Shown piece by piece: positions 3,299 to 45,486 of a stretch of DNA of 64,000 bases. This stretch comes from Primulina eburnea (Eukaryota > Streptophyta > Magnoliopsida > Lamiales > Gesneriaceae). Numbering within the stretch: the stretch's first letter is position 1; every line of letters begins with the position of its first letter. The notes below the pieces were generated by a model that made no database searches, had not been told where the DNA came from, and worked only from the letters and a program-made list of their open reading frames with translations. Location: NCBI RefSeq assembly GCF_022965805.1, contig NC_133101.1, positions 17,951,054-18,015,053 of the forward strand, in the 5' to 3' direction. Both the position numbers and the translations under genes were made by a program.

Positions 3299-3317
3299 AC
3301 TCTCCCCCCCTTAAAAG
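3299..3317 (-). other. Polypurine tract of element A
   Basis: On the minus strand the sequence immediately upstream of the 3' LTR reads CTTTTAAGGGGGGGAGAGT. This is the expected primer site for plus-strand DNA synthesis and matches the polypurine tract of element C in form. Confidence 0.8.
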
Positions 3318-3334
3318 AAATTTTGTCTTCGAAA

Positions 3335-4863: not shown

Positions 4864-4868
4864 ATGAG

Positions 4869-6446
4869 TGATAAACATAAAATTTGTACATTAATTAAAT
4901 GTTTTATAATATAAATTTATAGTTTTTATTTTATTAAATGTTTTAATATTATATGTTTTATAATAAATTGTATAAAAAATAAGTTGTTGTGTAATTATAA
5001 GTTTTCACTATTTTTACAGGTTCGATAAAACAAGAATAACATTGGCGTTGCAAATGGGATTAAGATGATTCTTGGACCTGTAGAAAGTTGATGATAATAT
5101 CTACAATATTGATGAAGAGCATGAGATAAAAATCCTCTCACAATTGGGATCAAATTAAGCAACAAATAAAGTTACCGAAGGAATGGCAGTTTTACCATGC
5201 TCTAGTATTTTCATCATATCTCTCAAATTACTTGGTCAAATAATCTGAAAAAAATACCACAACTAGACAACTCAATTATCCACATGTTTCTTTTTATGTG
5301 AAGAAGCAAATTCGGAGAAGAAGATTTTCAAAAGTGATGTGTAAAATAATATAATATCTTGGAACACCAATGAAGACTTATGTATAAAAAAATAATATTT
5401 TATTTTTGGTTGTCTCCCCAAACTTGGCTATAAATAGGGGTGCATTGTAATGTATTGAGATATCCCTCATTCTATGAACAAATATTTGAGTTTATAATAT
5501 TTCTCTCTATATTTTCTCTTTATTTCTTCATTTAAATACAATTAGCATGTTAATTTCATATTCAAAGTTTTACACTTTGAATAATAAATAGCTAACTTCC
5601 TAAAGTTGAGATGATAAGGTAAAACTCTTGGCATGATAATAAGGTTATTAAAAGGTAAGAATCTATGTTTTATATTATTTAATCATTATTTATTGTTTAT
5701 GTTATATTTATTTCTTTAAGCATTTTTATACCCTACTTATAAGTGGGAGTTTTGATTTATTGTTGCTATATGTTACACTAAATTCTTGGAACCATTTAAA
5801 TGTTAGTTTGGTATTACCAACCATTTAAAGTGGATGCCTTGATTTATTATATATAAATATATTATAATATTAAATTCTTGGAACCATTTAAATGTTAGTT
5901 TGGTTTTACCAACCATTTAACTTGGATTCCTTGATTTATTATATATGAATATATTATAGTGTTAATTTATTGGTACCATTTAAATGTTTGTTTGGTTTTA
6001 CCAACCATTTAAAGTGGGAACCTCGATTTAGTGTTTACAAATATATATAGCACAATAAATACTTGACCACATTTATAAGTTTGTGTTTATACTATATACT
6101 TATAAGATAATAATATATAACATAATATAAATATGATTATTTAATATATTGGAACCATTTTATTAAGTGGATTTCAATATTGTTCGTTAATGTTAACTTT
6201 ATTAAAATACCAAGAGTGGATCCTTTAATCTCAACTATTTAAATTAAAATTTGAACAATTAAAATTTATCCATTAAAGATTCAAACAATTAAAAATTAAA
6301 AAGAAACAAAAACAAAAACAAAATAAAAAGATATTGTAGTGGACTTGTAATTACCTTAGCTTCCCTGTGGATACGATATCGGACTCACCGAATATATTAC
6401 TTGTGGACAACCTGCTCTTGGGAGTGCAACAATCAAAGTGAAAACA
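4869..6446 (+). repeat. 5' LTR of element B
   Basis: The LTR begins TGATAAACAT and ends GAAAACA, pairing with 24737-26285. It contains CTATAAATAG at about 5430-5439, a plausible TATA box for the element promoter, in sequence shared by both LTRs. It also contains three tandem units of about 93 bases (5781 to about 6040), each with AACCATTTAAATG facing CCAACCATTTAA, so each unit could fold into a hairpin. Confidence 0.92.
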
Positions 6447-6452
6447 AGTTTT

Positions 6453-6470
6453 TGGCGCCGTTGCCAGGGA
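6453..6470 (+). other. tRNA-Asp primer binding site of element B
   Basis: TGGCGCCGTTGCCAGGGA lies six bases after the LTR. It is complementary, with about one mismatch, to the 3' end of plant tRNA-Asp, the usual Athila minus-strand primer. Confidence 0.88.
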
Positions 6471-6644
6471 AGTATAATTTAATTTCAAGTCTATTTAATT
6501 TTATTTATATTTTATTTTTCTTTCTTTGAATTTTTATTGCTTTTGTGTGTTTTTCTTCTTTTCTTTTGCATTTGCAAGAGCATTATTTGGTCACGTACAC
6601 TTAGTGGTCGACTCATTCGAAATAACCCTTTATTTTCACAAAAC

Positions 6645-8410
6645 ATGGCGGAAGAACCCATCCAAGAAAATGAAGATGAAATTCAATCTCAACATGATCA
6701 TGATAGGCGAAGAACACTTAGAGATCACATGAATCCTACACGTACTAGTGCACGTTCATGTCTAGTTTTTCCCCCTAATGCATCTCATTTCAATTTTAAG
6801 CCTGGTATTATCCAACTTTTACCCAACTTTCATGGCTTAGATTCTGAAAATTCATACATGCATTTACGAGAATTTGAAGAAGTATGCAACACATATAATG
6901 ATCTAAATTGTAGCATGAACACCATTCGACTTAAGCTTTTTCCTTTTTCTTTAAAAGATAAAGCTAAAACTTGGTTACAAAATCTTAGATCGGGATCCAT
7001 TCGAACTTGGGATGAATTGCAACAACAATTTTTTTAAAAAAATTTTCCATCTCATAGAACAAATTCTATCAAAAGGCAAATCATCACTTTCATTCAAAAA
7101 CAAGGAGAAACTTTTTATCAGTGTTGGGATAGACATAAAGAATTGCTTAATCTTTGTCCTCATCATGGTTTTGAAATTTGGAGAGTTGTTTCTCAATTTT
7201 ATGAAGGTTTAACACCCAAAGATAGGCAAATGGTCGAATTTATGTGTAATGGAACATTTGAAGATAAAGATCCAAACGAGGCAATTGAGTATCTCGATTC
7301 ATTAGCTGAAAATGCTCAAAATTGGGACACGATAGGTACAATTGAACCATCGAACAATATTCAATCTCCCACATCTAGTGGAGGTATGTACACTCTCAAG
7401 GATGAACATGATCTTCAAGCCAGATTTACCTCTTTGGCAAGAAAAGTTGAGGCACTTGAATTGAAAAAAATGGTCAATTAAAATCTGTTCAAGAAATTGC
7501 ATGTCACATCTGTGATACAAGTGATCATTCTACAAAAGATTGCCCCACTTTGCCTTCTTTTAAAGAATGTCTCCATGAACAAGCCAATGTTTTAAACAAT
7601 TTCAAAAGGCCAAATTTTGAACCATTTTCTCAAAGTTACAATTCAGGTTGGCGAAATCATCCAAATTTTAGTTGGAGGAATGATAATGCTGCACAATTTT
7701 CACAACCACATTTCCAAAATCAACAAAATTTTCAAAATTATGCACCTTATGTTCCTCCACCTAAAAGGAATTTGGAAGATATATTGAATTCTTTCATTGA
7801 AAAGCAAGAGTCTATCAATACTCAAACTGCTCAAACCATGACAGATTTGAAAGATACTCTTGCTAAATTTGCATCTGCCCTTAATGTTCATGAAAAAGGT
7901 AAATTTCCTTCACAACCACAGCCTAATCCCAAGGATCATCATTCACAAACTGGAACTTCTGGAACTCAATCGATGGATCAGGTAAAATCTATTATTACCC
8001 TTCGCAGTGGTAAGGTTGTGGAAAAATCCATTCTTGAACCTTGTGAAGATGATGATAAATCAATTCCAAAGGGTAAGGAAGTGGAACCCATAACTTGCGA
8101 AGAGGAGGATCAACAGATAGTGCCACCACCATTCCCTCATGCATTAAAAAATACAGAAAAATCAAATTTGAATTCTGATATATATGATATTTTTAAACAA
8201 GTAAAAGTTAATATTCCTTTATTAGATGCAATAAAGCAGGTACCATCATATGCCAAATTTTTAAAAGACTTGTGCACTGTGAAAAGAAAATTGAATGTGA
8301 AAAAGAAAGCATTTTTAGCCGAACAAGTAAGTGCAATCATTCAAAATAATAATGCTTTGAAATACAAAGACCCAGGTTGTCCTACTATTTCTTGTATTAT
8401 TGGAAAATGA
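6645..8410 (+). pseudogene. Element B gag (broken)
   Basis: The start is the ATG of MAEEPIQENEDE, in an AAACATGG context. The Athila capsid signature FPFSLKDKAKTWLQNL is at about 6940-6990. The frame is interrupted by an in-frame TAA at 7035-7037, after which the same frame continues through the HKELLNLCPHHGFE region. A frameshift follows in an A-run near 7465. The zinc knuckle CHICDTSDHSTKDC (CX2CX4HX4C) is at about 7499-7540 in the shifted frame, followed by YNSGWRNHPNFSW and the late-Gag signature ITLRSGKVV. An in-frame TGA at 8408-8410 then separates it from protease. This would be the structural and nucleic-acid-binding protein of the particle. Confidence 0.9.
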
Positions 8411-10510
8411 AAAGTTAAAAAAGAATTGCTTGACCTTGGAGCTAGTGCGAATTTACTTCCATATTCAGTTTATCTAGAACTCAATCTAGGCGAGTTAAAA
8501 CCTACTTCGGTAACACTTTTACTTGCTGATAGATCTGTTAAAGTGCCAAGAGGTATGGTAGAAGACGTGTTGGTCGAAGTTGATAACTTTGTATATCCTA
8601 TCGATTTCATAGTTTTAGATACACAACCTATTGAAGCTTGTAATGAAATTCCTGTAATTTTAGGTCGTCCATTTTTAGCAACTTCTTATGCTCTTATAAA
8701 TTGCAGGAATGGAATAATGAAGTTGTCATTTGGTAACATGACTTTGGAGCATAATCTGTTTAATCTTTGTAAGCAACCACATGACAAAGGAGATGAAAGT
8801 GAAGATGAAAATCTTATTGAAACTCTTGTGGAAGAAAACATTCAAGAATGGAGTACTCGTGATCAATTAGATATTTGTTCAATTGATACTGTTAAAGAAA
8901 AAATTGAAACTGATCTTGATGATTTTATTAGGTATCACCCGTTACCAGGATCAGAAAAAGAATTTGAGGCGAAATATGAGAACAAAGACGAACCACCAAT
9001 ATTGGAGTTAAAACCCTTGCCAGAAGAATTGAAGTATGCATTTCTTGGAGAAGATGAAACATATCCGGTGGTAATTTCTTCTAAACTATCAAGTAATCAA
9101 GAATATAAATTAGTTGATATGCTTAAAAGACATAAAAATGCAATTGGTTGGACACTAAAAGATCTTAAGGGCATTAATCCACTAATTTGCACTCACAAAA
9201 TTCACTTAGAAGAAAATGCTAAAACATCTCAACAACCACAAAGAATATTAAATCCACACATGAAAGATGTTGTGAAAACTCAAGTTCTCAAACTACTTGA
9301 TGTTGGAATTATCTACCCTATTTCTGATAGTAAGTGGGTAAGCCCAACACAAGTAGTTCCAAAAAAATCTGGCATGACAGTGATAAAAAATGAAAAAGGT
9401 GAATTGTTAACAAGTCGAGTCCCATCTAGTTGGCGGATGTGTATTGATTATAGAAAATTAAATGATGCCACTAGAAAAGATCATTTTCCATTACCATTTT
9501 TGATCAAATTTGAGAAAGAGTAGCATGTCATTCCTACTACTGTTTTCTTGACGGATATTCAGGATATTTTCAAATTCCCATTGCACTCGAAGATCAAGAA
9601 AAAACTACATTCACATGTCCTTTTGGAACATTTGCATTCAGAAGGATGCCACTTGGTTTATACAATGCCCCAGCAATATTTCAAAGATGTATGCTAATCA
9701 TTTTTTGCGACATGGTTGAAAACTGTTTGGAGATTTTCATGGATGATTTAACTGTTTTTGGGAGTACATTTGATAATTGTCTTGAAAATTTTGAAAAAGT
9801 TTTAAAAAGATGTGAGGAAAAAGGTCTTATTTTAAATTGGGAAAAATGTCATTACATGATTACTTCTGGAATTGTTTTGGGACATATTGTGTCATCTCAT
9901 GGAATTGAAGTTGATAAAGCAAAAGTTGATGTCATTGCCAATTTACCCCCTCCAAAAACCATTAAATAAATTCGCTCATTTTTGGGACATGCTGGATTTT
10001 ATAGGAGGTTTATAAAGGATTTTAGTTTAATCTCTAAACCCATTTGTAACCTCTTAACAAAAGACAGTGAATTTGAGTGGACTCAAGAATGTCAAAATGC
10101 TTTTGATAAAATCATTTGACATTTAACATCAGCTCCTATCATGCAACCTCCTGATTGGTCTTTACCATTTGAAATCATGTGCGATGCGAGTGATTATGCA
10201 GTCGGTGGAGTATTGGGTCAAAGAAGAAACGGTAAGCCTTATGTGATATATTATGCAAGTAGAACTTTAAACAATGCTCAAATGAATTATTCCACAACTG
10301 AAAAAGAACTACTTGTTGTAATATTTGCATTAGATAAATTTCGTTATTATTTGATTGGATCAACAACTATTGTGTTTACTGATCATTCTGCTATTAGATA
10401 TTTGTTGACCAAACAGGATGCAAAGCCACGACTGATACGATGGATTTTGTTGCTCCAAGAATTTGACATTGTAATCAAAGATAAAAAAAAAAGGAACCGA
10501 GAATGTCGTA
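8411..10510 (+). pseudogene. Element B protease, reverse transcriptase and RNase H (broken)
   Basis: The aspartic protease motif LLDLGASANLLP is at about 8426-8461. RT begins around 9190 and shows [20 protein letters not shown], then a frameshift near 9500, then [13 protein letters not shown] and the catalytic FMDDLTVFG (about 9737-9763). In-frame stops are TAA at 9967-9969 and TGA at 10118-10120. RNase H shows [18 protein letters not shown] and [11 protein letters not shown], ending in a frameshift in the A-run near 10485. Each lesion is a single stop or shift in otherwise well-preserved sequence, so the gene decayed in place. The MDD-type RT and DLGA protease fit Athila. Confidence 0.9.
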
Positions 10511-11893
10511 GCTGATCATTTATCGAGACTAGCAACAAGATCATCTTGTGAAATGGCACCAATTGATGATAATTTTCCTGATGAACAGTTATTTTCAGTA
10601 ACTACTATACCTTGGTTTACTAACATAGTAAATTTTCTTGTGACAGGAAAAATGCCACCGCAAAGGAGTTCCCAAGATAAAAGAAAATTTCTGAATGAGG
10701 TAAAAAACTTTTATTGGGATGATCCGTATCTATTCAAGTATTGTCCAGATCAAATTTTTCGACGTTGCATACCCGACAATAAGGTTAGTAGTGTCATTAA
10801 ATTTTGTCATTCAGACGCATGCGGAGGACATTTTTCTTCAAAGAAAACAGCTGCAAAAATCCTGCTGTGTGGATTTTATTGGCACACTTTGTTTAAAGAC
10901 ACCCAAGAAATTAGCAAGATCTGTGAAAATTGTCAAAAATTGGGTGCAATTTCAAAAAGAAACATGATGTCTTTGAATCCTATCATTAAAATTGAAATCT
11001 TTGGCTGTTGGGGAATTGATTTTATGAGACCTTTTCCACTGTCGTTTGGATACTTGTATATTTTAGTTGCAGTTGATTATGTTTCCAAATGGATAGAGGC
11101 AATTCCATGTCGAACAAATGATCATAAAATCGTCATCAAATTTTTGAAAGAAAATATTTTTAGTAGATTTGGAATTCCTCGAGCCATGATAAGTGATGGG
11201 GGAACTCACTTTGTTAATAAACCATTTGCTTCATTAATGAAAAAATATGGTATTACTCACAAAGTAACTACTCCTTATCATCCTCAAACAAATGGACAAG
11301 TTGAATTAGCTAATAGGGAGATAAAGCAAATTTTGGAAAAAACTGTTAACTCAAATAGAAAAAATTGGTCTCTGCTACTTAATGATGAACTTTGGGCATA
11401 TCAAACAGCTTTTAAAACACCATTGAATATGTCTCCCTATAGGTTGGTTTATGGAAAACATTGTCATTTGCCTGTGGAATTGGAACATAAAGCTTATTGG
11501 GAGATCAAAACTTTTAATTCAAGCATGGATGAGGCCAGCAAATTGCTTAAATTGCAACTTAATGAACTTGATGAACTCAGAAATGACGCGTATGAGAATT
11601 CAAGGATTTATAAAGCAAAAATCAAATCATTTCATGATAAAACAATTTTTAGAAAATATTTTGAGATTGGTAAAAAAGTTTTGCTTTATAATTCTCGACT
11701 TCACATATTCCTAGGAAAATTACGATCAAGATGGACAGGCCCATATATTGTAAAACATGTGTATCCTTATGGAGTTGTGGAAATTGAAAATCCTAAAAAT
11801 GGTGATGTTTTTAAAGTAAATGGACAAAGGCTTAAACCATTTTTAGAAAATGAAATCTTTAAAGAAGAGTTTATTTCCCTTTCCGATCCTTGA
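10511..11893 (+). CDS. Element B integrase region (open frame)
   Basis: The frame is open from about 10494 to the TGA at 11891, with a first internal ATG at 10553. It carries the H2C2 zinc region ([19 protein letters not shown] through CENCQKLG) and the DDE core: Asp in GIDFMRPFP, Asp in ISDGGTHF and Glu in [10 protein letters not shown]. Tail motifs are [19 protein letters not shown] and the C-terminal [19 protein letters not shown]. It belongs to the polyprotein and has no independent start, because an upstream frameshift near 10485 separates it from RNase H. The catalytic residues are intact, but M-R-P replaces the usual M-G-P after the first Asp. Confidence 0.85.
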
Positions 11894-12157
11894 TTTTTTG
11901 TGTTGAATTTAATTTTGTTTGTTTTTATTTCAGGTTTCCTTAATCTTTTTATTTTCCCGGTTAAATGGCGGATAACGGTACTCCGTGGCTCTCATAGTCG
12001 GTTTAATCAGTTTCCCACAATTGCTGATACAAAAATAAATAAAAAAATTCATTTCTTTTCTTTTCAAAATGGATGAAATTCTCTCAAAAATTTGTAAATA
12101 TTTCCCCCTGTTTCTGAAAATGTTCTAAAAAAAATTTATGCAGGAAGGTGTGAAAGA
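11894..12157 (+). other. Spacer between element B integrase and the cysteine-rich frame
   Basis: This is a T-rich spacer. Two acceptor-like pyrimidine-AG sites are visible: TTTTTATTTCAG ending near 11933 and TTTATGCAG ending near 12143. Athila env-like genes are thought to be expressed from spliced RNA, so these are candidate acceptors for a subgenomic message; that is inference. An ATG at 12069 is in a different frame from the following open frame and stops at 12126-12128. Confidence 0.4.
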
Positions 12158-12631
12158 TTGAGATTGCTAATTCAAAAAGGAATTCCAGAAGATATTCGTC
12201 TTGTAATAGAAGCTAAGGTCCGATTAGGAGGAGAAGTTCCACAATCATTGTTCATTCGGTATTTGCTTGGATTAGGAAAAAGCACTTACGCAAAAAAAAA
12301 AAAAAGGGCCAAAAGGTTAGGGGTTTGTCATAAGTGTGCAAGATGGACTTGTGACACACGATGCAGATCTTTGGGATGTGTTTCCAATAACAGAGAAGAC
12401 AAAATTGATTTCATTAAGAATGGGCTGAGTAAGGAGTCTTTAGATAACATCTTATTGACTCTTGAGACGCATTCTAGTGGACACGTGCATATTGAACTTC
12501 TCCGTTTATGGAAACAATTCCAAGATGAACGTCATCTTAATAGTCTTGGGAATCCAACTAAAAAAGACCCTGTTTGCCAATTTATAATAAAATTGGAGGG
12601 AAGCATATCCTCGACTCATAGAAGGCGTTGA
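12158..12631 (+). CDS. Cysteine-rich nucleic-acid-binding-like protein, resembling carlavirus-type NABP
   Basis: The frame is open from about 12098 to the TGA after codon 157 (counting from TTG at 12158) and has no in-frame ATG near its start, so the true start is unknown. The N-terminal third is helical-looking. A strongly basic stretch (residues 46-53, KKKKRAKR) leads directly into a cysteine cluster at residues 57, 60, 65, 69 and 74, followed by a hydrophobic segment and a C-terminal extension of about 70 residues that I do not recognise. The basic patch before CxxC and a later CxxxxC fits the carlavirus/vitivirus/allexivirus zinc-finger family (Pfam Carla_C4), whose members bind nucleic acid and can suppress silencing or alter host transcription. 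The spacing between cysteine pairs is shorter than I expect, so homology is probable, not proven. A run of 14 A bases (12292-12305) encodes the basic patch. The frame lies in the Athila env position, 41 bases before element D. Confidence 0.5.
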   Translation: MRLLIQKGIPEDIRLVIEAKVRLGGEVPQSLFIRYLLGLGKSTYAKKKKRAKRLGVCHKCARWTCDTRCRSLGCVSNNREDKIDFIKNGLSKESLDNILLTLETHSSGHVHIELLRLWKQFQDERHLNSLGNPTKKDPVCQFIIKLEGSISSTHRRR

Positions 12632-12672
12632 AGCCGTTTCTGGACGTAAAACCAGAGGAAAATTGTGAGCCA
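12632..12672 (+). other. Element B spacer ending in target duplication AGCCA
   Basis: Bases 12668-12672 (AGCCA) are repeated at 22685-22689 and mark the insertion site of element D. Without D this spacer would run directly into the LOG promoter region at 22690. Confidence 0.85.
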
Positions 12673-14004
12673 TGACCGACGATTTCGGTTGGGAATAAAT
12701 CTAGCAAGCGGACTAGGTCAAGTAATAGTAATTGGAGATGAGTCCGGTATCGTACCCACAGAGATTGATGTTTAAATACTAGAATGCGAATTATTTTTCC
12801 TAATTTAGGCTAATAAAATTCAAATGATGGGAGATAAATTAATTAAAACTAAATAAAACAATTTAAACAAATTAACTAAAGCAAAAATAATTCAAACTAT
12901 TAATTTAGACGAAAATTCAAGTTATTTAAAAACGACTAAGGCGCACAACGGTACCGAGACAACTTATAATCTACGTGTCAAATTCATATTCAATAAATTA
13001 ATTATTTAATTCACGACGGAATTCCCAAAATTATTTATTAAACGATTCCTCGAATTAATAAACCTAATTAAATCTAACAGTCCAATTATTCCTAATTGAA
13101 TTTAATTAGATTCAACTGCATTAGATCGCTGTGAAATTCCAGTTTTTCAACCTAAAGTCGCACACTGAAATCGAATACTTATTTCTAGTCAATTTAACCA
13201 TGTGTTGATTGATGTGTGAAGCAAATATTAATCTATCGCCTTCCGGTTTTAGATTAACCAACAAATATTCTATTTAATTGGCCAGATTAAAAGAACACGT
13301 GATAAACGACATCAATCAATGAATAAAATAAATAATCTAATTGAATAAAACTCAAAACATCAAAAAATAATATGTCTCGGCCCTATCATGGCCTTAGTCT
13401 ATGAAAATCTACTCCATAAATTCAAAATAAAAGTCCAAATCAGTGTTTAAATTAAATGCAGAAAACATGATTAAGAAGGAATGGAAGAGATTCTCTGTAA
13501 TTTGTAGTGTGTTTGAGGAATTCCTCGCTGGTTTTGCTCTTCTTCCTCCCTTCTTTCTCCTTCTTCCGCGCTGTTCTGCTATTCTGTCTCTCACTTCCGT
13601 CCTCTTTTCTGCTTCCGTGCGTCTCTGCTTCCGTCTCCTTCTCTGCTTTTACGGCTGCCTTCTTTTGTACGCTTCTCCTTCACTCTTAATGGGCCTCCTT
13701 CTTCACTTTATTCTAAGCCCATGTCAAATAAAGAAAATGATAAGATATTTATCAAGATTCACATAGATTTTTCAAGATTTTAATATCATCAAGGAATAAA
13801 AATATTTTATTTTCTTTCTTTTGATATTTTTTTTCTTTGAAATCTTGTAAATTCATCTTTTATTTCAAATTTAATCATTTTCCTCTTTTATTCAAATCTA
13901 AAATTATTATTCAATTAAGCACATAATTAGGGATAAAAATATTAGATAAGGGCAAATATTATTAAATTAAATCCCTAAAATCTTTTCAAGATTTGGCCTT
14001 ATCA
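12673..14004 (-). repeat. 3' LTR of element D
   Basis: On the minus strand it runs from TGATAAGGCC to GTCGGTCA. It matches 21353-22684 at a constant offset of 8680 bases. Open frames at 13409-13594, 13443-13766 and 13507-13689 recur unchanged in the other LTR and are not genes. Confidence 0.95.
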
Positions 14005-14020
14005 ATCCCCCCACACTTAG
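14005..14020 (-). other. Polypurine tract of element D
   Basis: The minus strand reads CTAAGTGTGGGGGGAT directly upstream of the 3' LTR, a typical plus-strand primer site. Confidence 0.8.
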
Positions 14021-15847
14021 CCTTTGTTCGTCCTCGAGCAAATCAAAAGAAGAAAAATATTATGAAGGAATATTCAATGATTCACCACACAAAATGACAC
14101 AATCAACACTTTTCAACATACCAAATTCCGTCACACTCAATCAAAAGATCACACTTCGAAAATCATAAAATATACTTTCGTTGCAACTTTAAAACTCAAG
14201 CATTCACTAGAAAAGATCAAGATAATGAGACGTGTGTAGTGTGGAAGTCAAAACTCATATTCCTCAGAGGTGTTTCAGTTCAAGGAGTGCTCATATTTTC
14301 TGAATTTTTTTTTTTTTTTTTTATAAAGAAACTCTCCATAAACTTGTCTTTCATACCTTTCTCCACTAAATGTTGGAGGAATATGACCCGGTCAATAGGT
14401 CTTTTAAGCTTATAATGTTAGGCCACGGCTCACGGCTACAATAAAGGTTGGGAGATTCAAAATGAGAGAAAATAAACAAGTATTCCTTCAGCGCATTCCT
14501 TCATCTCTTATCTTCCTCCTCATTGAGTTTCATCATCCTCCAGCTTACTTTTTTCATCTTCCTTGTACTTTCATTCATATTCCCCCATATTTTTTTCTCT
14601 TCCTCTTCCTCCAGTTTCTTTCAATCTTCAACAACATTCCTTTTTAGTTTTTTTTTTTCAATAATCACATCAATATTCCTCCTTCCTTTCTTTTTTTTTT
14701 TTTTATGTATATATATTTTTTCATCAATCCCCTTCTCATTCTTCATGATTTTTTTTTTTTCAAACTCCCCCAATTTTTCTTATCAATCAGCACATGAGAG
14801 TTATTGAAAATTTAAAGCGCTAAAGGGGTTTATTTCTCTCAAAATTAGGTAGAGGAATAGTGTATGAGCTAAAATTGGGTAGTTGATGTGGGACTTTGAA
14901 GGAATACGAATGGTGGCTAATTGTATGTCTTTGACACACTCCATTCGATTTATTAGGCTCAAAAGGGAATACTAGGGATATGAATGATGCGTTGGGTAGG
15001 CTCGAAAGGCTCAAACGGTCCAAAGATCGCCTAAATCATCCCTAAGTCATTCTCCTCCGTATTTTCGCCTCGAAAGATAATCAGACAAGTTCTAGATTGT
15101 TTCTTTTCTTTTTTTTTTTTTTTTTTTTTTTTTGCTTATTTTTTTTTCATGAGCTCACCTTTTACCAATTCACGATTAATTCATATAAGTATGACCTAAA
15201 GTGCCTAGATGATGTCTCGAAACATGATACAAAACTAGTTTATGCTCAAATCCTTCGGCTACAACTACAGCTCATCTCAATCAATTCTAGGTGTGATTCA
15301 ATCTCTCGAGTGATCAAAAATCTAGGAAGTCAATTAGTGTGTCATGTAATCACAAGTGCGGTTTCTCAAAGAATAACCAAAGAAAAAAAGAAAAAAAAAA
15401 ATTTCATGCTCGAGGATTAAACATTGAAGCACATACTAAGTGTGGTGTCGTGAAACAAAACACAAATTCCCCCCACACTTTAGATTTACACTGTCCTCAG
15501 TGTCATACCCTTCAAAAAGTAAATAGAATTTGGATGTATAATAGTAAGAGAACACTTCCCTGGCAGTGTGCTTTGAGTTCCATGGAGTGGTACATGGGGA
15601 TGGTAGAATTCCTCACTGCTGGAAATCTCTTATTTCAACAGTTTAGCTTTTCCAGAGTCTAAGTCATCTTGCTTCATTCCAATATTCCCTACACACACCA
15701 AAATCACAGAGAATTAAACTAACAGACTGAAAAAGTAAAAAAAATAATAATAATAAAATAAAATAAAATAAAATAAAATAAATCACTGGGTTGCCTCCCA
15801 GCAAGCGCTAAATTTATCGTCTATAGCTAGACAACTCCCTTTATAAA
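14021..15847 (-). other. Element D 3' non-coding region
   Basis: There are 1.8 kb between the pol stop and the polypurine tract. It holds long A-runs on the element's coding strand (T-runs at about 14308-14323, 14690-14704 and 15107-15133 on the plus strand) and several purine-rich GGGG stretches near 15465-15475 that resemble second polypurine tracts. The short open frames on either strand are low-complexity or lack recognisable motifs. I see no transmembrane env-like gene. Confidence 0.6.
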
Positions 15848-18800
15848 TTAGGTCGGGTCGTGCAAAGGGGTACTCGGCTCTTCTTGCTCCATAATTCCTT
15901 CATGAAAAATTTTCAGCCGATGGCCATTCACCTTAAAGGGATTTCCAGAATCTCCACGGATTTCTACAACACCAAAGGGAAAAACTTCAGTAACAGTAAA
16001 AGGCCCGGACCATTTGGAACGAAGTTTACCTGGCATGAGTTTCAAACGAGAGTTATAAAGAAGAACTTTTTGTCCAGACTCAAATTCCCTGTGCACAATC
16101 CTTGCATCATGCCACTTCTTTGTCTTTTCCTTGTAGATTTTTGCATTCTCATATGCATCAAGACGAAATTCCTCCAGCTCATTGAGTTGTAGAAGACGCT
16201 GATAACCTGTAGCTTGCACATCAAAGTTCAAAAATTTAGTAGCCCATAATGCCCTATGCTCTAGTTCAACAGGAAGGTGACAAGCTTTTCCATAAACCAA
16301 TCGAAAAGGGGAAGTTCCTATAGGGGTTTTGAATGCTGTTCTATATGCCCACAATGCATCATCCAATTTACTAGCCCATTCCTTCCTCGAAGATCCAATG
16401 GTCTTCTCAAGAATTTTCTTAATCTCCCTATTTGACACTTCTACTTGACCACTAGTTTGAGGATGATAAGGTGTTGCCACCTTGTGCGTGACCCCATACT
16501 TAGTTAACAGAGACTCAAAATAACGATTACAAAAGTGTTTTCCCCCATCGCTAATAATGGCTCTAGGTGTGCCAAATCTTGCAAAAATATTTTTCTTTAA
16601 AAATTGGATCACAACCTTAGAATCATTGGTTCTACAAGCACTTGCTTCCACCCACTTGGATACGTAATCCACAGCCACCAAAATATATTTATTTCCTAAG
16701 GAATCTGGAAATGGCCCCATGAAATCAATTCCCCACACATCAAACAATTCACAGATTAAAATATTATTCAATGGCATTTCGTGTCTCCTTGAAATATTAC
16801 CAACACGTTGGCATTCATTGCAATTCAAAACATAAGTGTGTGCATCCTTGAACAGTGTAGGCCAGTAGAATCCAGCTTGAAGGATTTTTGTAGCAGTTTT
16901 ACTTGCCCCAAAATGTCCTCCAGTTGGACCACTATGACAATGAGAAAGTATAGAACTTACCTCTTCCGCTGGAATACACCTACGAATAATGTCATCTGCA
17001 CAAATTCTAATCAAAAGAGGATCTTCCCAAAGATAATATTTTAAATCTGAAAAGAACTTCTTTTTCTGCTGATATGTAAGATGAGAAGGAATAAATTTGC
17101 ATGACAAATAATTGACAAAATCAGCATACCATGGTAAATTAGAGATGGCATAAAGTTTCTCGTCAGGGAATTCATCTCTAATTACATACTTACCTTCCTC
17201 GGGCTTCTCCAATCTCGATAGATGATCAACAACTTGGTTTTCAGTCCCCTTGCGATCCACGATCTCTATGTCAAATTCTTGCAGTAGAAGAATCCATCTT
17301 ATCAATCGTGGCTTGGCATCCTTCTTGTTTAAGAGATACTTTAAAGCTGAATGATCCGTGTGGACTATCACTTTACTCCCTACAAGGTATGGCCGAAACT
17401 TGTCCAAAGAAAAAACAACAGCCAGCAACTCTTTTTCTGTGGTGGAGTAGTTCAATTGAGCTCCTGAAAGTGTCATGCTTGCATAGTAGATTACATGCAA
17501 GAATTTGTCCCTCTTTTGCCCCAAAACAGCCCCTAAAGCAATATCACTTGCGTCACACATGAGTTCAAACGGTAGATGCCAATCTGGTGAAACAATGATC
17601 GGGGTTGTGGTTAACTTTTGCTTTAATGCCTGAAAAGCTTGTAAACAATCCTCAGAAAAAACAAAAGGAACATCTTTCATTAGCAAATTAGTTAAAGGCT
17701 TAGTAATACTCGAGAAATCCTTGATAAATCGTCTATAAAAACCTGCATGCCCAATAAAGCTACGGATTCCTTTGACATTAGTAGGAGGAGGAAGCTTTTC
17801 TATGATCTCTACCTTAGCTCTATCCACTTCAATACCTTTTTCAGAAATTTTGTGACCAAGGACAATTCCTTCCCTTACCATGAAATGACATTTCTCCCAG
17901 TTAAGTACAAGATTCGTTTCTTCACATCTCTTTAGCACTTTTGACAAATTAATCAAACAAGAGTCGAAGGAAGAACCAAAAACAGAAAAGTCATCCATGA
18001 AAACCTCAATATACTTTTCAACCATATCATGAAAAATCGACATCATACAACGTTGAAAAGTAGCAGGAGCATTACACAAACCAAATGGCATTCTTTTATA
18101 AGCAAATGTACCATAGGGACAAGTAAAAGTGGTCTTATCTTGATCGTCGGGATCTATGGGAATTTGCATATATCCAGAATAACCATCTAAAAAACAATAG
18201 AAAGCATGACCTGCCAAACGCTCCAACATTTGATCAACAAAAGGTAAGGGGAAGTGATCTTTTCTTGTGGCATCATTCAATTTGCGATAATCAATACAAA
18301 CACGCCACCCAGTCACAGTTCTAGTGGGGATTAATTCGTTATTTTCATTTTCAACAACAGTGATTCCCCCTTTCTTAGGAACAACATGCACAGGACTTAC
18401 CCACTTGCTATCGGATATAGGAAAGATCATACCTGCATCAAGGAGTTTGATTACCTCCTTTTTGACGACCTCTTGCATAGCTGGATTCAATCTCCTTTGA
18501 GGTTGAGTAGTGGGAGAGTGCTCCTTCTCCATTAAAATTTTGTGCATGCACATGGATGGATTTATTCCCTTGATGTCAGCAATGCTCCATCCAATGGCAC
18601 ATATGTGATCCTTCAGCACTCTCAAGAGCTTATCTTCCTCATCACCTGTCAAGGAAGAAGAAACAATTACTGGCAGTTTATCTTCTTCTGTCAAAAATAA
18701 ATATTTTAAATGAGGAGGAAGTGGTTTGAGTTCGAGGAATGGGGGTTCTTCTATGGATGGTTTAAGTGATTTTGGAATATGTCCAAGCTCCCCAATCTTC

Positions 18801-21202
18801 GAATTCACCGATCTTGGCAGTGGCTTTGATCCCTCTAAGAAGTTCATACATTCCTCCACCTCTTCTCTGCTGGATTCCGTGGACTTTGGGCTAACCAAAA
18901 GCTTTTCCAGTGGGTCTTCAATCAAAGTATCCTGCACACTACACTCAACAATATCATCAATAGCATCTATTCTATAACAATCAGAAGATCCAGGATATTT
19001 CATGCTGTGAAAGACATTAAAAGTTACCTTCTCATCATTCAACCTCAAAACTAACTCACCTTTTTGCACATCTATGAGAGCTCTTCCAGTAGCTAAGAAA
19101 GGACGACCTAAAATTAGGGGGATCTCACGATCCTCCTCCATGTCTAGCACAACAAAGTCAACTGGAAATATAAATTTATCAACTTTAACCAAAACATCCT
19201 CTATAACCCCTCTAGGATATTTAATAGACCTATCAGCAAGTTGAAGGGAAATAGTGGTTGGTTTAACTTCTCCAATCCCCAATTTCTCAAAGCAGGAATA
19301 AGGCATAAGATTTATGCTAGCACCAAGATCACACAATGCTTTGTTAAAATTAGAATTACCTATAGTGCAAGGAATGGAGAAACTACCTGGATCCTTAAGC
19401 TTTGGAGGTAATTTATTTTGCAAAATAGCTGAACATTCCTCAGAAAGCTTAACAGTTTCAAAATCAACAAGTTTCCTCTTTTTAGTCAAAATATCTTTCA
19501 AGAATTTAGCATAAGAAGGCATTTGAGCCAAAGCCTCTACAAAAGGAATATTTATGTGCAATTTCTTAAAAACTTCAAGAAATTTTGAAAATTGTTGATC
19601 CAATTGTAGTTGCCTTGCTCTTTGAGGAAAAGGAAGTGTATTAATATCAATATTATCATTAGAATCAAATTCCTTACCTTTCTTACCTGTCTTCCGTGTA
19701 GTCTGAGTGTTCTGTTCCTTAGCATCTTCCATTTTTGGTTTCATTCCTCCATCATTCTTTGCCTCCATATCTGTAGAATTCTGCTTCTTTGATTCCTCTT
19801 CCTCGGCCTTGATAACTGTACTCACTGCATTCACTCCTTTCGGATTTTTCTCAGTATCACTTGGTAGTGTTCCAAGGGGTCGATTTGCTAATTGATTGGC
19901 TATTTGACCCATTTGAGCATCCAACCTCCGTAAGATAGCATCATGATTTTGCAGTCTCGTTTCCATCCCCACAACATGTTTCATCATAAAATCCTCATAA
20001 ATTGATTTTTGCTCTTCTTGCTTGAATCCTGGAGGTGCTGTAGGTACCAATACTCCTTGCTGTCTCATTTGTTGAGGAATGGGCAGTGGAGGAATATGTG
20101 ATGGATTAAGGGAATTCTCTGTATTCTTCCATGACAAATTAGGGTGATTCCTCCATCCTGGATTATACGTGGAACTGTATGGATTTGATTGCTGTCTCCA
20201 GTGATTCCCCACAAAATTCACTGCTTCTTCATCAAAAATGGGTTGTTCCTCGATGACTATTCCTTGGACTTGATTTGCTTGATTTGACTGCAGCTGAGAG
20301 AATTGATGGGCCAACCCATCAATCTTAGCAGTAAGTGCATTCAACACATCCATTTCAAGAACTCCAGCCTTCTTTTCTCGTTTAATATCTGGCCAACCCG
20401 CACTATTTTCAGCCATATTTGAAATTATTTCAAGTGCAACTCGTGGAGTCTTCCTGTATAAGCTACCATTGGCTGCCGCATCTAGCATGGAACGCACAGA
20501 AGGATCAACTCCGTTATAGAAAATCTGAACTTGTTCAGATGAAGAGAAACCATGTTGAGGACACCTCCTCAACATCTTCCTAAATCTTCCCCAAGCTGTA
20601 TGTAGTGTCTCCCCATCCTTCTGGCGAAAAGATGAAATATCCATACGCAGTTGTGCTAGCTTGGCGGGTGGAAAATATTGATTCATGAATAATTCCACCA
20701 ACCCATTCCATGTAGTAATAGAACCAGCTGGTAAATCTCTAAGCCATTCTGCTGCTTCACCATGCAAAGAGAAAGGGAATAGTCTCAATCTTATGGCATC
20801 CGTGCTCACTCCATTGAATTTGATTGTGTCACAGATAGATAGAAATCCCTCCAGATGTGCATTAGGATCCTCGGTCTGCGATCCTCCAAATCTCACTTGA
20901 TATTGTATCATTTGAATGATGGATGGCTTCAACTCAAAATTATTTGCTTCCACAGTAGGACGAGTAATGCTTGAACCATAACCTCCAGTAGTTTGTCTAG
21001 TAAGATCATAGACAGTGCGCTCATCCTCCTCGTTGGCCATTGCTTCTATCCCTGCTATTTCAACCTTCTTCTCTTGTTTGAACTGCTCTTCCACGTCAGA
21101 GTCTGAGGATTTCTCCCTTTGTGCTCTACGTCTCCGTCGAAAAGTATTCTCAATCTCTGGATCAAATGGCTCTAATTCTGTGTCTCCTCTAGCACGGCTC
21201 AT
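15848..21202 (-). CDS. gag-pol: Element D Gag-Pol polyprotein (intact)
   Basis: One frame of 1784 codons from the ATG of [13 protein letters not shown]. The frame is open 42 codons further upstream, but that part is a hydrophobic leader-like stretch preceded by non-coding sequence, so I choose 21202. Gag carries [20 protein letters not shown] and [13 protein letters not shown]. Protease has [11 protein letters not shown] (about residue 624), RT has FMDDFSVFG (about 1069), and RNase H has [15 protein letters not shown] (about 1214). Integrase has the H2C2 region and the DDE residues in GIDFMGPF (about 1490), SDGGKHF (about 1551) and [10 protein letters not shown] (about 1592). The polyprotein makes the particle, copies the RNA and integrates the cDNA. 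I find no CX2CX4HX4C knuckle in Gag, which element B retains. No stop or frameshift is present. Confidence 0.96.
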
Positions 21203-21329
21203 GCACAGTAAGATAATCCCTGAAAATAAATAAACAAACTTTAAACGTACGAATATGCGTAAAATCAACAAAATTAAATAAAAACCTAATCTCAAGAAAA
21301 TAATAAATCCTAATATTAAACAATTCAAT
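21203..21329 (-). promoter_or_regulatory. Element D leader with a possible splice acceptor
   Basis: On the minus strand GTTTATTTATTTTCAG (about 21233-21218) precedes the Gag ATG by about 15 bases. The pyrimidine-rich AG looks like a plant 3' splice site, so the leader might be spliced; no experiment supports this here. Confidence 0.3.
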
Positions 21330-21346
21330 CCCCGGCAACGGCGCCA
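21330..21346 (-). other. tRNA-Asp primer binding site of element D
   Basis: The minus strand reads TGGCGCCGTTGCCGGGG six bases after the LTR end, matching the plant tRNA-Asp 3' end, as in Athila elements. Confidence 0.93.
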
Positions 21347-21352
21347 AAAACT

Positions 21353-22684
21353 TGACCGACGATTTCGGTTGGGAATAAATCTAGCAAGCGGACTAGGTCA
21401 AGTAATAGTAATTGGAGATGAGTCCGGTATCGTACCCACAGAGATTGATGTTTAAATACTAGAATGCGAATTATTTTTCCTAATTTAGGCTAATAAAATT
21501 CAAATGATGGGAGATAAATTAATTAAAACTAAATAAAACAATTTAAACAAATTAACTAAAGCAAAAATAATTCAAACTATTAATTTAGACGAAAATTCAA
21601 GTTATTTAAAAACGACTAAGGCGCACAACGGTACCGAGACAACTTATAATCTACGTGTCAAATTCATATTCAATAAATTAATTATTTAATTCACGACGGA
21701 ATTCCCAAAATTATTTATTAAACGATTCCTCGAATTAATAAACCTAATTAAATCTAACAGTCCAATTATTCCTAATTGAATTTAATTAGATTCAACTGCA
21801 TTAGATCGCTGTGAAATTCCAGTTTTTCAACCTAAAGTCGCACACTGAAATCGAATACTTATTTCTAGTCAATTTAACCATGTGTTGATTGATGTGTGAA
21901 GCAAATATTAATCTATCGCCTTCCGGTTTTAGATTAACCAACAAATATTCTATTTAATTGGCCAGATTAAAAGAACACGTGATAAACGACATCAATCAAT
22001 GAATAAAATAAATAATCTAATTGAATAAAACTCAAAACATCAAAAAATAATATGTCTCGGCCCTATCATGGCCTTAGTCTATGAAAATCTACTCCATAAA
22101 TTCAAAATAAAAGTCCAAATCAGTGTTTAAATTAAATGCAGAAAACATGATTAAGAAGGAATGGAAGAGATTCTCTGTAATTTGTAGTGTGTTTGAGGAA
22201 TTCCTCGCTGGTTTTGCTCTTCTTCCTCCCTTCTTTCTCCTTCTTCCGCGCTGTTCTGCTATTCTGTCTCTCACTTCCGTCCTCTTTTCTGCTTCCGTGC
22301 GTCTCTGCTTCCGTCTCCTTCTCTGCTTTTACGGCTGCCTTCTTTTGTACGCTTCTCCTTCACTCTTAATGGGCCTCCTTCTTCACTTTATTCTAAGCCC
22401 ATGTCAAATAAAGAAAATGATAAGATATTTATCAAGATTCACATAGATTTTTCAAGATTTTAATATCATCAAGGAATAAAAATATTTTATTTTCTTTCTT
22501 TTGATATTTTTTTTCTTTGAAATCTTGTAAATTCATCTTTTATTTCAAATTTAATCATTTTCCTCTTTTATTCAAATCTAAAATTATTATTCAATTAAGC
22601 ACATAATTAGGGATAAAAATATTAGATAAGGGCAAATATTATTAAATTAAATCCCTAAAATCTTTTCAAGATTTGGCCTTATCA
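21353..22684 (-). repeat. 5' LTR of element D
   Basis: This is the same 1332 bases as 12673-14004. The end at 22684 (ATCA on the plus strand, TGAT on the minus) is followed by the target duplication AGCCA at 22685-22689. Confidence 0.95.
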
Positions 22685-22689
22685 AGCCA

Positions 22690-22846
22690 CAATCACACTA
22701 CTGTTTATATGCATGTGTGTCATTATTGTTTTTACTGTTTATTCTGTTTACAGCTGTGACCCATTGTTTTGTCATGATAACATATTATCCCTATAAAATC
22801 TCTCATCTTTCTCTCTATTTTCGAAGACCAAAAAGAAAGTAAAAAC
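22690..22846 (+). promoter_or_regulatory. Putative promoter and leader of the LOG gene
   Basis: TATAAAA lies at 22792-22798, 49 bases before the ATG, followed by a CT-rich initiator-like stretch and an AAAAACATGGCT start context close to the plant optimum. A pyrimidine-AG (CTGTTTACAG, ending near 22752) could alternatively be an acceptor for a spliced B transcript. A retrocopied mRNA would not normally bring a TATA box, so this may be element sequence or a later acquisition. Confidence 0.5.
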
Positions 22847-23485
22847 ATGGCTGGATCCTCTACACAATCATTGAAAAATATTTGTGTGTTTTGTGGGTCG
22901 AGTCCTGGAAAAAATGAAGTGTTTGTAGAAGCAGCGAATAATCTTGGAAAGATATTGGCTGAGAGAAAAATTCATTTGGTATATGGGGGAGGTAATATTG
23001 GGTTAATGGGATTTGTTTCAACATCTGCTCATCTTGGAGGTAGTCAGGTTTTGGGTATTATTCCTACAGCTTTAGCTGAAAGAAATATTACAGGTGTTAC
23101 GATTGGGGAGGAATTAAAAGTTTCTTCTATGTATGAAAGAATCACAAAAATGATTGAAAATTTGGATGCTTTTATCGCACTACCAGGTGGTTTTGGTACA
23201 TTAGAGGAAATTTTTCATACTGTTTCTTGGGCACAACTTAATATCCATAATAAACCTGTGGGCTTGTTGAATATAAATAATTATTATGACAGTTTGTTGA
23301 CATTTCTGGATAAAGCTGTGGAACAGAATTTCATTTCAGAAAATTCACGACGGATGCTCATTTCTGCTTCGACTGCCGACCAATTAATTGATGATTTGGA
23401 AGCTTTTGTTCATAAGCCTGATCCGATGATAGCAAAGATCAATTGGTCGCAATCAAGCAGTAAAAAAAGAAAGTTGGATCATTGA
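22847..23485 (+). CDS. LOG: LONELY GUY-type cytokinin riboside 5'-monophosphate phosphoribohydrolase, intronless, inside element B
   Basis: The gene encodes 212 residues, the usual plant LOG length. LOG enzymes release free active cytokinin base from the nucleotide in one step. ICVFCGSSPGK (12-22) and LVYGGGNIGLMG (44-55) form the Rossmann-like nucleotide fold. PGGFGTLEE (113-121) is the family signature, and R98 and E121, the residues needed for catalysis in characterised LOGs, are both present. The residue after R98 is Ile where most LOGs have Lys (RI for RK). SWAQLNIHNKPVGLLN follows. The tail ends KKRKLDH, a possible nuclear localisation signal. Plant LOG genes normally have several introns; this copy has none, suggesting capture through RNA. 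It sits where Athila elements have an env-like gene and has no stop or frameshift. Family call certain; activity and expression unknown. Confidence 0.95.
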   Translation: MAGSSTQSLKNICVFCGSSPGKNEVFVEAANNLGKILAERKIHLVYGGGNIGLMGFVSTSAHLGGSQVLGIIPTALAERNITGVTIGEELKVSSMYERITKMIENLDAFIALPGGFGTLEEIFHTVSWAQLNIHNKPVGLLNINNYYDSLLTFLDKAVEQNFISENSRRMLISASTADQLIDDLEAFVHKPDPMIAKINWSQSSSKKRKLDH

Positions 23486-23532
23486 TTCAAAAGTCGTGGT
23501 TTGGTTTGCGTTTGTTTCAGTTTGTTATCTTC

Positions 23533-23538
23533 AATAAA
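23533..23538 (+). terminator. Poly(A) signal downstream of LOG
   Basis: AATAAA lies 48 bases after the LOG stop codon within AT-rich sequence, giving the gene a plausible independent 3' end. Confidence 0.5.
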
Positions 23539-24720
23539 ATTCCAAGTGATATGTCTTTCATTATGTACTCTTTATTAATAGCTATTTTGACATTAGGGAC
23601 AATGTCATATTCTGATTGGGGGGAGAATAAACTTTCATAAAAAAAATTAATAAAAATTAAAAAAATATATTATTTTAAAATAAAATCATGTTTATTGTTT
23701 GTACCTTTGTAATTTTTGCAAAAATATCATACATTACATATTTGAAAGGTTTAAATTAGAAAATTTATTAATCTATCTAAGGATGTTTAATTTTTATTTG
23801 GAAAAAAGTCAATTTTAATATTCTGATCAATATAAAAATATGATTTATGAAATCTTTTTGAGTGATTAACCATTGTGATAAAATCAGGTATTAAAGTATA
23901 TGGCCCAAGATATACCTTATAAGAGTGCCTAAAATTTTAAACTCACACATATTTTGTGAGTGAGTGGAGAGGACAGAGAAAACAGCTTTCGAGCCTTTAT
24001 TGATCATGAGAGAGACTATCTATTATTTAGATCTTAAGTTCTTATTTTGAAAAAAAAATGATATTTCTTGAAAAAAAAAATTAAAAAAAAAGAGAAAAAA
24101 ATAAAAAAATAAAAAAAAGATATTGAATATCTATGTAATTTTTAAGTTATATGCTACGACCCATTTATCTCTCATAAAAAAAAAGAAAAAAAAGAAAAAA
24201 AAAAAGAAAGAGGGAAATTTATTGTAGAAATTAAATAAATATGTGGTCAAGAAGCATAAACTTATTCTGATTCCATGATGTTGTGAAAAAAAAATATCAG
24301 GAAAAAATATATAATAAGAACAACTAGATTTTGAATCAATGGATTTTCTATCTTTTGATTAGTTTGGCTCGTTTGTCTGTCTGCATTCTGTAAACTATTT
24401 TCCTGAGCATTTATCTGTATTTCAACTCCATGAGAGAAATCGTTCCCATAAATTGAAACATTTATTAAACATGTGAGGATATGGAGTTGAGACTCTTACT
24501 AGGAATTTCTGAAGGCCATGTACATTTAACTACCTGAAAATAAGCTTTGAATTGATCATCTCAGATTATTTCATAAATTATAATTATGATGATCTTGATA
24601 TAACTTTGACTATTTTCAAATTTAATTTAAACACTTAGATAGTTCTGATTATATTTCTATTTAAATTAATCAATATGTTTTGTATTGTTATTAACGCTTA
24701 AATTGCTAGAGACTAGCAAT
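23539..24720 (+). other. Element B 3' untranslated region
   Basis: TTAGGGACAATGTCATATTC followed by TTGGGGGGAG (about 23593-23624) resembles the conserved sequence after the last gene in Athila elements, perhaps an internal polypurine tract. The rest is A-rich low-complexity sequence (24050-24215) without open frames of note. Confidence 0.6.
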
Positions 24721-24736
24721 AAGCTGGTTGGGGGTG
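24721..24736 (+). other. Polypurine tract region of element B
   Basis: AAGCTGGTTGGGGGTG sits directly before the right LTR. It is purine-rich but interrupted by T, so the exact primer is uncertain. Confidence 0.6.
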
Positions 24737-26285
24737 TGATAAACATAAAAATTGTACATTAATTAAATGTTTTATAATATAAATTTATAGTTTTTGTTTT
24801 ATTAAATGTTTAAATATTATATGTTTTATAATAAATTGTATAAAAAATAAGTTGTTGTGTAATTATAAGTTTTTACTATTTTTACAGGTTCAATAAAACA
24901 AGAATAATCTTGGCGTTGAAAATGGGATTAAGATGATTTTTGGACTTGTAGAAAGTTGATGATAATATCTACAATATTGATGAAGAGCATGAGATAAAAA
25001 TCCTCTCACAATTGGGATCAAATTAAGCAACAAATAAAGTTACCGAAGGAATGGCAGTTTTACCATGCTCTAGTATTTTCACCATATCTCTCAAATTACT
25101 TGGTCAAATAATCTGAAAAAAATACCACAACTAGACAACTCAATTATCCACATGTTTGTTTTTATGTGAAGAAGCAAATTCGGAGAAGAATATTTTTAAA
25201 AGTGATGTGTAATATAATATAATATCTTGGAACACCAATGAAGACTTATGTATAAAAAAATAATATTTTATTTGTGATTTTCTCCCCAAACTTGGCTATA
25301 AATAGGGGTGCATTGTAATGTATTGAGATATCCCTCATTCTATGAACAAATCTTTGAGTTCATAATATTTCTCTCTATATTTTCTCTTTATTTCTTCATT
25401 TAAATACAATTAGCATGTTAATTTCATATTCAAAGTTTTACACTTTGAATAATGAATAGCTAACTTCCTAAAATTGAGATGATAAGGTGAAACTCTTGGC
25501 ATGATAATAAGGTTATTAAAAGGTAAGAATCTATGTTTTATATTATTTAATCATTATTTATTGTTTATGTTATATTTATTTCTTTAAGCATTTTTATACC
25601 CTACTTATAAGTGGGAGTTTTGATTTATTGTTGCTATATGTTACACTAAATTCTTGGAACCATTTAAATGTTAGTTTGCTATTACCAACCATTTAAAGTG
25701 GATGTCTTGATTTATTATATATAAATATATTATAATATTAAATTCTTGGAACCATTTAAATGTTAGTTTGGTTTTACCAACCATTTAACTTGGATTCTTT
25801 GATTTATTATATATGAATATATTATAGTGTTAATTTATTGGTACCATTTAAATGTTTGTTTGGTTTTACCAACCATTTAAAGTGGGAACCTTGATTTAGT
25901 GTTTACAAATATATATAGCACAATAAATACTTGACCACATTTATAAGTTTTGGTTTATATTATATACTTATAAGATAATAATATATAACATAATATAAAT
26001 ATGATTATTTAATATATTGGAACCATTTTATTAAGTGGATTTCAATATTGTTCGTTAATGTTAACTTTATTAAAATACCAAGAGTGGATCATTTAATCTC
26101 AACTATTTAAATTAAAATTTGAACAATTAAAATTTACCCATTATTTAAATTTAAATTTGAACAAAAAGATATTGTAGTGGACTTGTAATTACCTTAACTT
26201 CCCTGTGGATACGATATCGGACTCACCGAATTATATTACTTGTGGACAACCTGCTCTTGGGAGTGCAACAATCAAAGTGACAACA
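24737..26285 (+). repeat. 3' LTR of element B
   Basis: It begins TGATAAACAT and ends GACAACA, followed by the target duplication ATGAG (26286-26290). It differs from the left LTR by scattered substitutions and by an indel near 26130-26165. The three 93-base tandem units are at about 25647-25905. Confidence 0.92.
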
Positions 26286-26812
26286 ATGAGCTATCACTGC
26301 GACTTTTCTGCTCAATGCATCTGCAACTACATTAGCTTTGCTCGGGTGGTAGCTAATGTCACAGTCATAGTCCTTCACTAGCTCCAACCAATGCCTCTAA
26401 CGCATATTCAGCTCCTTCTGCGCAAAGAAATACTTGAGGCTCTTATGGTCGGTAAAGATCTGGCACTTCTCTCCGTATAAATAATGCCTCCAAATCTTCA
26501 AGGCAAATAATACGGTGCCAACTCCAGATCATGGGTAGGGTAATTCTTCTCATGGGTTTTCAACTGACGAGAAGCATACGCTATCACCTTCCCATGCCGC
26601 ATCAACATTGCGCTTAAACCGAGCTTCGAAACATCGGTATACAGAAAAAACTCACCGGGCCCTGATGGCATGGCCAAAACTGATGCTGAGATAAGAGCTT
26701 GCTTCAAAGTATCGAAGCTCTTCTGACACTCATCGCTCCACACAAATTTCACATTCTTCTTTGTCAATGATGTGAGTGGAACTGCGATATAGGAGAATCC
26801 CTGAATGAACTT
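26286..26812 (-). pseudogene. Element A RNase H (broken)
   Basis: Minus-strand sequence gives [22 protein letters not shown], then [14 protein letters not shown] with the first catalytic Asp, and [23 protein letters not shown]. The continuation through [11 protein letters not shown] and ELNMR to [17 protein letters not shown] is readable down to 26291 but in shifted frames with a stop. The far side is interrupted by element B. It would remove RNA from the cDNA hybrid in an active element. Confidence 0.85.
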
Positions 26813-45446: not shown

Positions 45447-45467
45447 TAATTTCGAGGACGAAATTTC

Positions 45468-45486
45468 ATTTAAGGGGGGGAGGAAT
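45468..45486 (+). other. Polypurine tract of element C
   Basis: CATTTAAGGGGGGGAGGAAT-type sequence directly precedes the right LTR. Its G7 core matches the polypurine tract of element A. Confidence 0.85.

Follow-up and report, generated by a model that had tools for sequence, protein, structure and literature searches.

In 2011, Steinbauerova reportedly described a similarity to LOGL4 in two Athila-like elements. A LOG/YgdH domain has since been noted in Ty3/gypsy consensuses of Citrus sinensis, C. clementina and Populus trichocarpa in a study which itself cites that earlier report (Steinbauerova 2011; PMC9289625), so that the headline of a LOG gene in a plant Ty3/gypsy element was already known from the reports of 2011 and 2022 (the papers given here by PMC number are represented by parts of their text). 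The same study describes orchid Ty3/gypsy elements with an AlkB m6A demethylase, which is likewise an accessory gene, although a different gene in different plants (PMC9289625). The element analysed here resembles the Citrus and Populus consensuses in that a LOG-family domain lies inside a Ty3/gypsy element, but it comes from a Lamiales plant, Primulina eburnea, in which there are two LOG-carrying families, one of them high-copy. It also differs in having as a partner a gene for a carlavirus-type cysteine-rich nucleic-acid-binding protein (CRP), which, like an analysis of the LOG pocket and tail, is absent from the available text of that study (PMC9289625). No report linking CRP or PF01623 with retrotransposons was found among the titles and abstract openings of the open-licence PMC literature, and the combination of CRP with LOG seems to be new, as does the change in the enzyme pocket. 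Some plant RNA viruses also have genes of the AlkB type. The question why plant LTR elements retain additional genes downstream of pol gains two named examples here, both present in numerous copies and both under purifying selection. We document their gene order and copy number, the selection acting on the proteins, a single clade of element LOGs as set against the host LOGs sampled, a catalytic Arg/Glu pair that is mostly kept and a pocket Lys and Glu that are lost. As a whole explanation, it appears moderately probable from these sequences that CRP and the LOG-family gene form a two-gene cassette behind pol of an Athila-like lineage, which would make the cell permissive for the element.

The window, which is the whole stretch of 64,000 nucleotides that was analysed, contains a Ty3/gypsy LTR-retrotransposon, element B, which is interrupted by a second such element, A (Table 1). 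Element B has paired LTRs with TG..CA ends (97.7 % identity across 1408 columns) and a 5-bp target duplication, and the Pfam matches to gag, reverse transcriptase (RT) and integrase, which lie in separate pieces, follow each other in that order, with integrase behind RT as expected of Ty3/gypsy. With plant substitution rates of 0.7-1.3 x 10^-8 per site per year, B would have an age on the order of 1-2 million years. We call B Athila-like, which we take to be its lineage. The Athila ORF-1 domain PF03078, which is present in only 16 % of Athila elements (PMC6317226), had no Pfam match in the scanned pieces of B. Element A, which lies between CRP and LOG, is a recent insertion, since its LTRs are 100 % identical over 1333 bases, and its gag-pol frame at 15848-21328 (1826 aa) is unbroken. 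A location of LOG within A was ruled out, as tblastn of the window gave no LOG or CRP match in A. Both LTRs of B contain 92-base tandem repeats (5687-6046 and 25555-25914). Element B also seems to be nested in another Ty3/gypsy element, an RT-like frame of which lies at 3302-4725 and 26304-28093 on the minus strand, and relatives of this apparently enclosing element recur at 42552-45482.

Table 1. Features of elements A and B in the window, in order along the forward strand.
Feature	Position	Strand	Evidence or remark
TSD ATGAG flanking B	4864-4868 and 26286-26290		
Element B, Ty3/gypsy, split by nested element A	4869..26285	+	LTR pair, TSD
5' LTR of B	4869..6446	+	
PBS-like TGGCGCCGTTGCC of B	6453..6465	+	
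gag pieces of B, broken	6483..7481	+	PF03732 in two pieces
Protease-like and reverse transcriptase pieces of B, broken	8411..9969	+	PF00078 1.8e-23; PF13650 below cutoff
Integrase of B	10475..11893	+	PF00665, PF17921
35-base non-coding motif	11953..11987	+	also L001 1665-1699 and L092 649-683
CRP frame, carlavirus-type cysteine-rich nucleic-acid-binding	12158..12631	+	PF01623 4.3e-5, above curated cutoff
Nested element A, Ty3/gypsy	12673..22684	-	identical LTRs, TSD AGCCA
TATA-like box, ~50 bases before LOG start codon	22791..22800	+	
LOG-family gene, 212 codons, intronless	22847..23485	+	
Polypurine tract of B	24728..24736	+	
3' LTR of B	24737..26285	+	

The initial annotation, made from the sequence alone, had described the frame at 22847-23485 as a full-length LOG, and our analyses bear this out. 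Its 212 aa translation is free of stops and matches PF03641 at 2.8e-38, residues 8-202 match Arabidopsis LOG3 (2a33) at 2.8e-64, and an AlphaFold model (pLDDT 81) superposes on 2a33_B at 1.3 A with 53 % identity. Residues R98 and E121 and the stretch PGGFGTLEE are present, which are the catalytic Arg and Glu and the PGGxGTxxE motif by which a LOG is recognized. The position assigned to the gene, between integrase and the 3' LTR of B and thus in the place of env, agrees with the LTR pair and with the sister copies; the view that a gene of this kind would be unusual there is weakened, since LOG (YgdH) had already been reported in plant Ty3/gypsy elements (PMC9289625). Capture of LOG through RNA is plausible because the frame has no intron. 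A search of the source genome for host LOG exons, with whole-host-LOG and 92-aa queries, returned element-type copies only among 150 scored rows.

A LOG search of the source genome gave 1460 first-look candidates, and the 150 places that were scored, the window's own included, were all full length at 94-100 % identity, 148 of them without a stop. When 20 of these places were fetched with their flanks, LOG was found in every one, CRP upstream in 19 and integrase in 18; LOG mostly started ~0.9 kb after integrase, with CRP in between, and a 3' LTR followed ~1240 bases behind LOG in 19 copies. Twelve more loci, none of which is in the scored LOG-search list, were fetched from the 150 rows of a CRP search. 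LOG stood behind CRP in 11 of them, and was a full-length open frame in six (in one case without the usual stop), shortened in frame in one, broken in four and absent from one. A second Primulina family is represented by 80 of 150 scored rows at 82-100 % identity to the P. eburnea protein P0019, some of them broken, and 17 of these 150 rows from the source genome are 100 % identical to P0019. The LOG of the window family shares 68 % identity with P0019, and the order integrase-CRP-LOG recurred in all four fetched copies of the second family. Other Athila-like copies with LOG at the same place, for which the initial annotation had proposed to look, are numerous in the window family and recur in the second family.

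The CRP gene between integrase and LOG was absent from that first reading. In the window its homology begins at 12101 (tblastn 12101-12598), its frame is disrupted close to each end, and the fragment lies above the cutoff for PF01623 (Carla_C4) only; an open frame of 181-183 codons is found in 12 of the 20 sister copies. CRP relatives at E <=0.01 number 204, and the 120 listed include rosids and asterids, among them Xanthoceras, Populus, Acer, Rhamnella and Orobanche. PF01623 is matched by 34 and PF05515 by 32 of 35 aligned relatives at 1e-3, and a basic stretch and four cysteines (a C4 zinc finger) are invariant or nearly so across the 35 rows. The element CRP is like the CRPs of carlaviruses, allexiviruses and mandariviruses in its basic stretch followed by four cysteines, and most of its relatives match both of these Pfam families. 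It differs in its cysteine spacing, which is C-x2-C-x4-C-x3-C as against C-x2-C-x12-C-x4-C in one carlavirus (PMC8839810), and in being a retrotransposon-borne protein of ~182 aa, whereas viral CRPs are of ~11 kDa. The structural model of CRP is weak (pLDDT 66), and its best BFVD match, a viral RNA silencing suppressor, is not significant (E 0.77); no CRP relatives were confirmed in IMG/VR. In one Rhamnella gene model (P0156), by sequence reading, a C-terminal integrase portion is fused to CRP. In all four copies of the second family (L092-L095, 746-1366) CRP has extra sequence and a common early stop near the C-terminal end. The ENA entries for LOG P0007 and CRP P0174 each lie on a contig of 8723 bases, which suggests that LOG and CRP share a single contig in yet another plant. 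On contig L001, integrase and CRP are followed by 983 bases without LOG, so CRP does not need LOG and CRP-only elements exist. L001 belongs to a bacterial MAG (Candidatus Nomurabacteria, TPA) and holds plant retrotransposon DNA, an apparent case of plant contamination in a public bacterial genome.

Comparison of the window LOG with 20 copies gave dN/dS of 0.15-0.27, and the value among 16 distinct LOG sequences was 0.24, for copies that were mostly picked by similarity and are thus biased toward intact ones; the maximum likelihood omega over distinct copies, with kappa held at 1, was 0.34-0.37. Between the two families LOG shows a dN of 0.25 and a dS of 1.31, the latter near saturation. For CRP, dN/dS was 0.21-0.27 between the two families and against L001, compared with 0.07-0.13 for integrase. 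Changes in LOG were counted over 56 rows, two of which have a stop and some of which duplicate another row's place; these merged to 35 distinct sequences. Changes common to at least two of these had N:S of 24:23, or 0.41 of the neutral 2.57, and changes in single sequences had 44:26, or 0.66 of neutral, a pattern that, in a sample biased by choosing most copies for similarity, fits selection on the mobile lineage together with decay after insertion. The initial annotation had proposed dN/dS as a check, a value near 1 pointing to a chance insertion; the value found for LOG is about 0.2, both within and between the two families. A single chance insertion is ruled out by the copy number, the kept gene order and dN/dS. 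It is in turn highly improbable that LOG was captured once by chance and travels as passive, functionless cargo. Several LOG copies are indeed broken, and hundreds of transposon-captured genes have been reported in grasses (PMC7264820), but cargo of this kind is at odds with such low dN/dS, with the same gene order in both families and with rosid and asterid relatives in one clade.

LOG relatives at 1e-40 number 3461, and the best 120, which were listed, include 30 from Reevesia, seven from Diplodiscus, six from Populus and two from Paulownia; many relatives per plant are as expected if these genes outside Primulina, represented here by protein sequences, belong to repeats too. In a tree of 67 element-type and 28 host rows, the element-type proteins are separated from the host LOGs sampled (SH-aLRT 100), and in a tree of 29 element-type, 26 host and three Xanthoceras rows they form one element clade (bootstrap 100/SH-aLRT 95), with the three Xanthoceras proteins as its sister branch; the rows of both trees (67 of 121 element-type rows in the first, 29 in the second, and the host rows) were hand-chosen, and the host set was seeded by LOG3 and LOG8, so that the trees may lack further groups of host LOGs. 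This one clade holds rosid as well as asterid relatives. In IMG/VR, 28 loci at 23-40 % identity to LOG were judged too distant and left out.

In the LOG of C. glutamicum (CgLOG), Arg99 and Glu122 are proposed to be catalytic, Met96/Lys100/Glu121 make up the adenine site, and the prenyl site seems to consist of Met96/His97/Lys100/Glu125/Trp129 (PMC4979012); positions in the window LOG are the CgLOG numbers minus one. Residues were counted in proteins of 200-235 aa only, that is, in 117 of 121 element-type rows (window included) and 98 of 120 host rows, and the four element-type rows dropped include Xanthoceras P0003, P0005 and P0053. Host LOGs carry H96, R98, K99, E121, E124 and W128 in 98 of 98 rows. 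Within the clade R98 is kept in 111, E121 in 113 and W128 in 116 of the 117 rows, and H96 is present in 46, K99 in none and E124 in none. The window LOG has Y96, I99 and H124 where the CgLOG pocket has His97, Lys100 and Glu125. The pocket change probably took place on the stem of the element LOG clade, because the three Xanthoceras sister proteins keep E124 and, by sequence reading, K99. Like plant LOG3 (At2g37210, 2a33) and type-I LOGs in general, the element LOG has the LOG fold, PGGxGTxxE and the catalytic Arg and Glu; unlike them, it has Lys99 and Glu124 replaced and a basic tail, and it is ~53 % identical to 2a33.

These substitutions bear on whether the element encodes an ordinary LOG that activates cytokinin, tolerates its pocket changes and raises local cytokinin, favouring dividing cells as the initial annotation proposed, which we consider rather doubtful. 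The kept catalytic pair and the predicted LOG fold are what such an enzyme would have, and MmLOG likewise differs at some prenyl-site positions with a similar AMP binding mode (PMC4979012). Against it stand the loss of Lys99 and Glu124 from every counted row of the clade and from no host row, and the finding that in CgLOG alanine changes at AMP-binding or catalytic residues, among which Lys100 is named, almost abolished activity, S19A excepted (PMC4979012). Plant LOGs also differ among themselves, making mainly iP or iPR (PMC11593424), and the substrate of the element LOG may differ from that of host LOGs. The term cytokinin-activating in the initial annotation lacks support in that form, given that the replacements affect residues which line the adenine and prenyl pocket in active LOGs, and the claim should be lowered to the name LOG-family.

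In their last 22 residues, 104 of the 120 listed LOG relatives have LxLxL, which we take to be an EAR motif, and 103 have a basic run, each of which occurs in 0 of 98 host LOGs. Such a tail would suit a regulator in which the fold is reused and the basic run and LxLxL recruit repressors in the nucleus. This is nevertheless unlikely, as the LxLxL end is missing from the window family, although the basic run is present there, and as the catalytic residues, superfluous in a pure scaffold, are conserved.

Under the preferred explanation of a two-gene cassette, LOG would have been captured once as a processed copy and would then have changed its pocket and tail, and the element would drive expression of the cassette, perhaps through the TATA-like box that precedes LOG. 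CRPs of viruses are silencing suppressors, and the one encoded by chrysanthemum virus B acts as a transcription factor and causes hyperplasia (PMC8839810, PMC12172455); the element CRP might, as its viral relatives do, bind nucleic acid and weaken host silencing or change host transcription. The LOG-like enzyme could still cleave a nucleoside 5'-monophosphate, possibly not iPRMP, and given its basic tail it could do so in the nucleus, and the two proteins together would favour the element by making its host cell more permissive. Against the cassette stands the observation that CRP and gag-pol of the window copy are broken. A more specific version, which we put forward tentatively, is a counter-defence cassette of eudicot Athila-like elements, in which a nuclear silencing-suppressor CRP shared with flexiviruses would act beside a LOG-derived hydrolase with a new base specificity and a nuclear tail, repressor-recruiting in most relatives; the sharing of CRP would then, just as tentatively, reflect genes passing between retrotransposons and RNA viruses. 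Suppression of silencing by CRP would make it a viral-type gene by which a retrotransposon counters defence, and a new substrate for the LOG-like enzyme would mean that a hormone enzyme has been turned to the use of a mobile element.

Two non-coding signals accompany the genes. The 35-base motif had no Rfam family up to E 1 and no exact occurrence in the viral contigs searched, and it folds no better than its shuffles (z -0.01). It lies between the integrase stop and CRP and differs at two positions across the window, both families and L001, and the DNA near it differs between those elements. Upstream of LOG, TATAAA is aligned in both families, in the window and in two copies of each.
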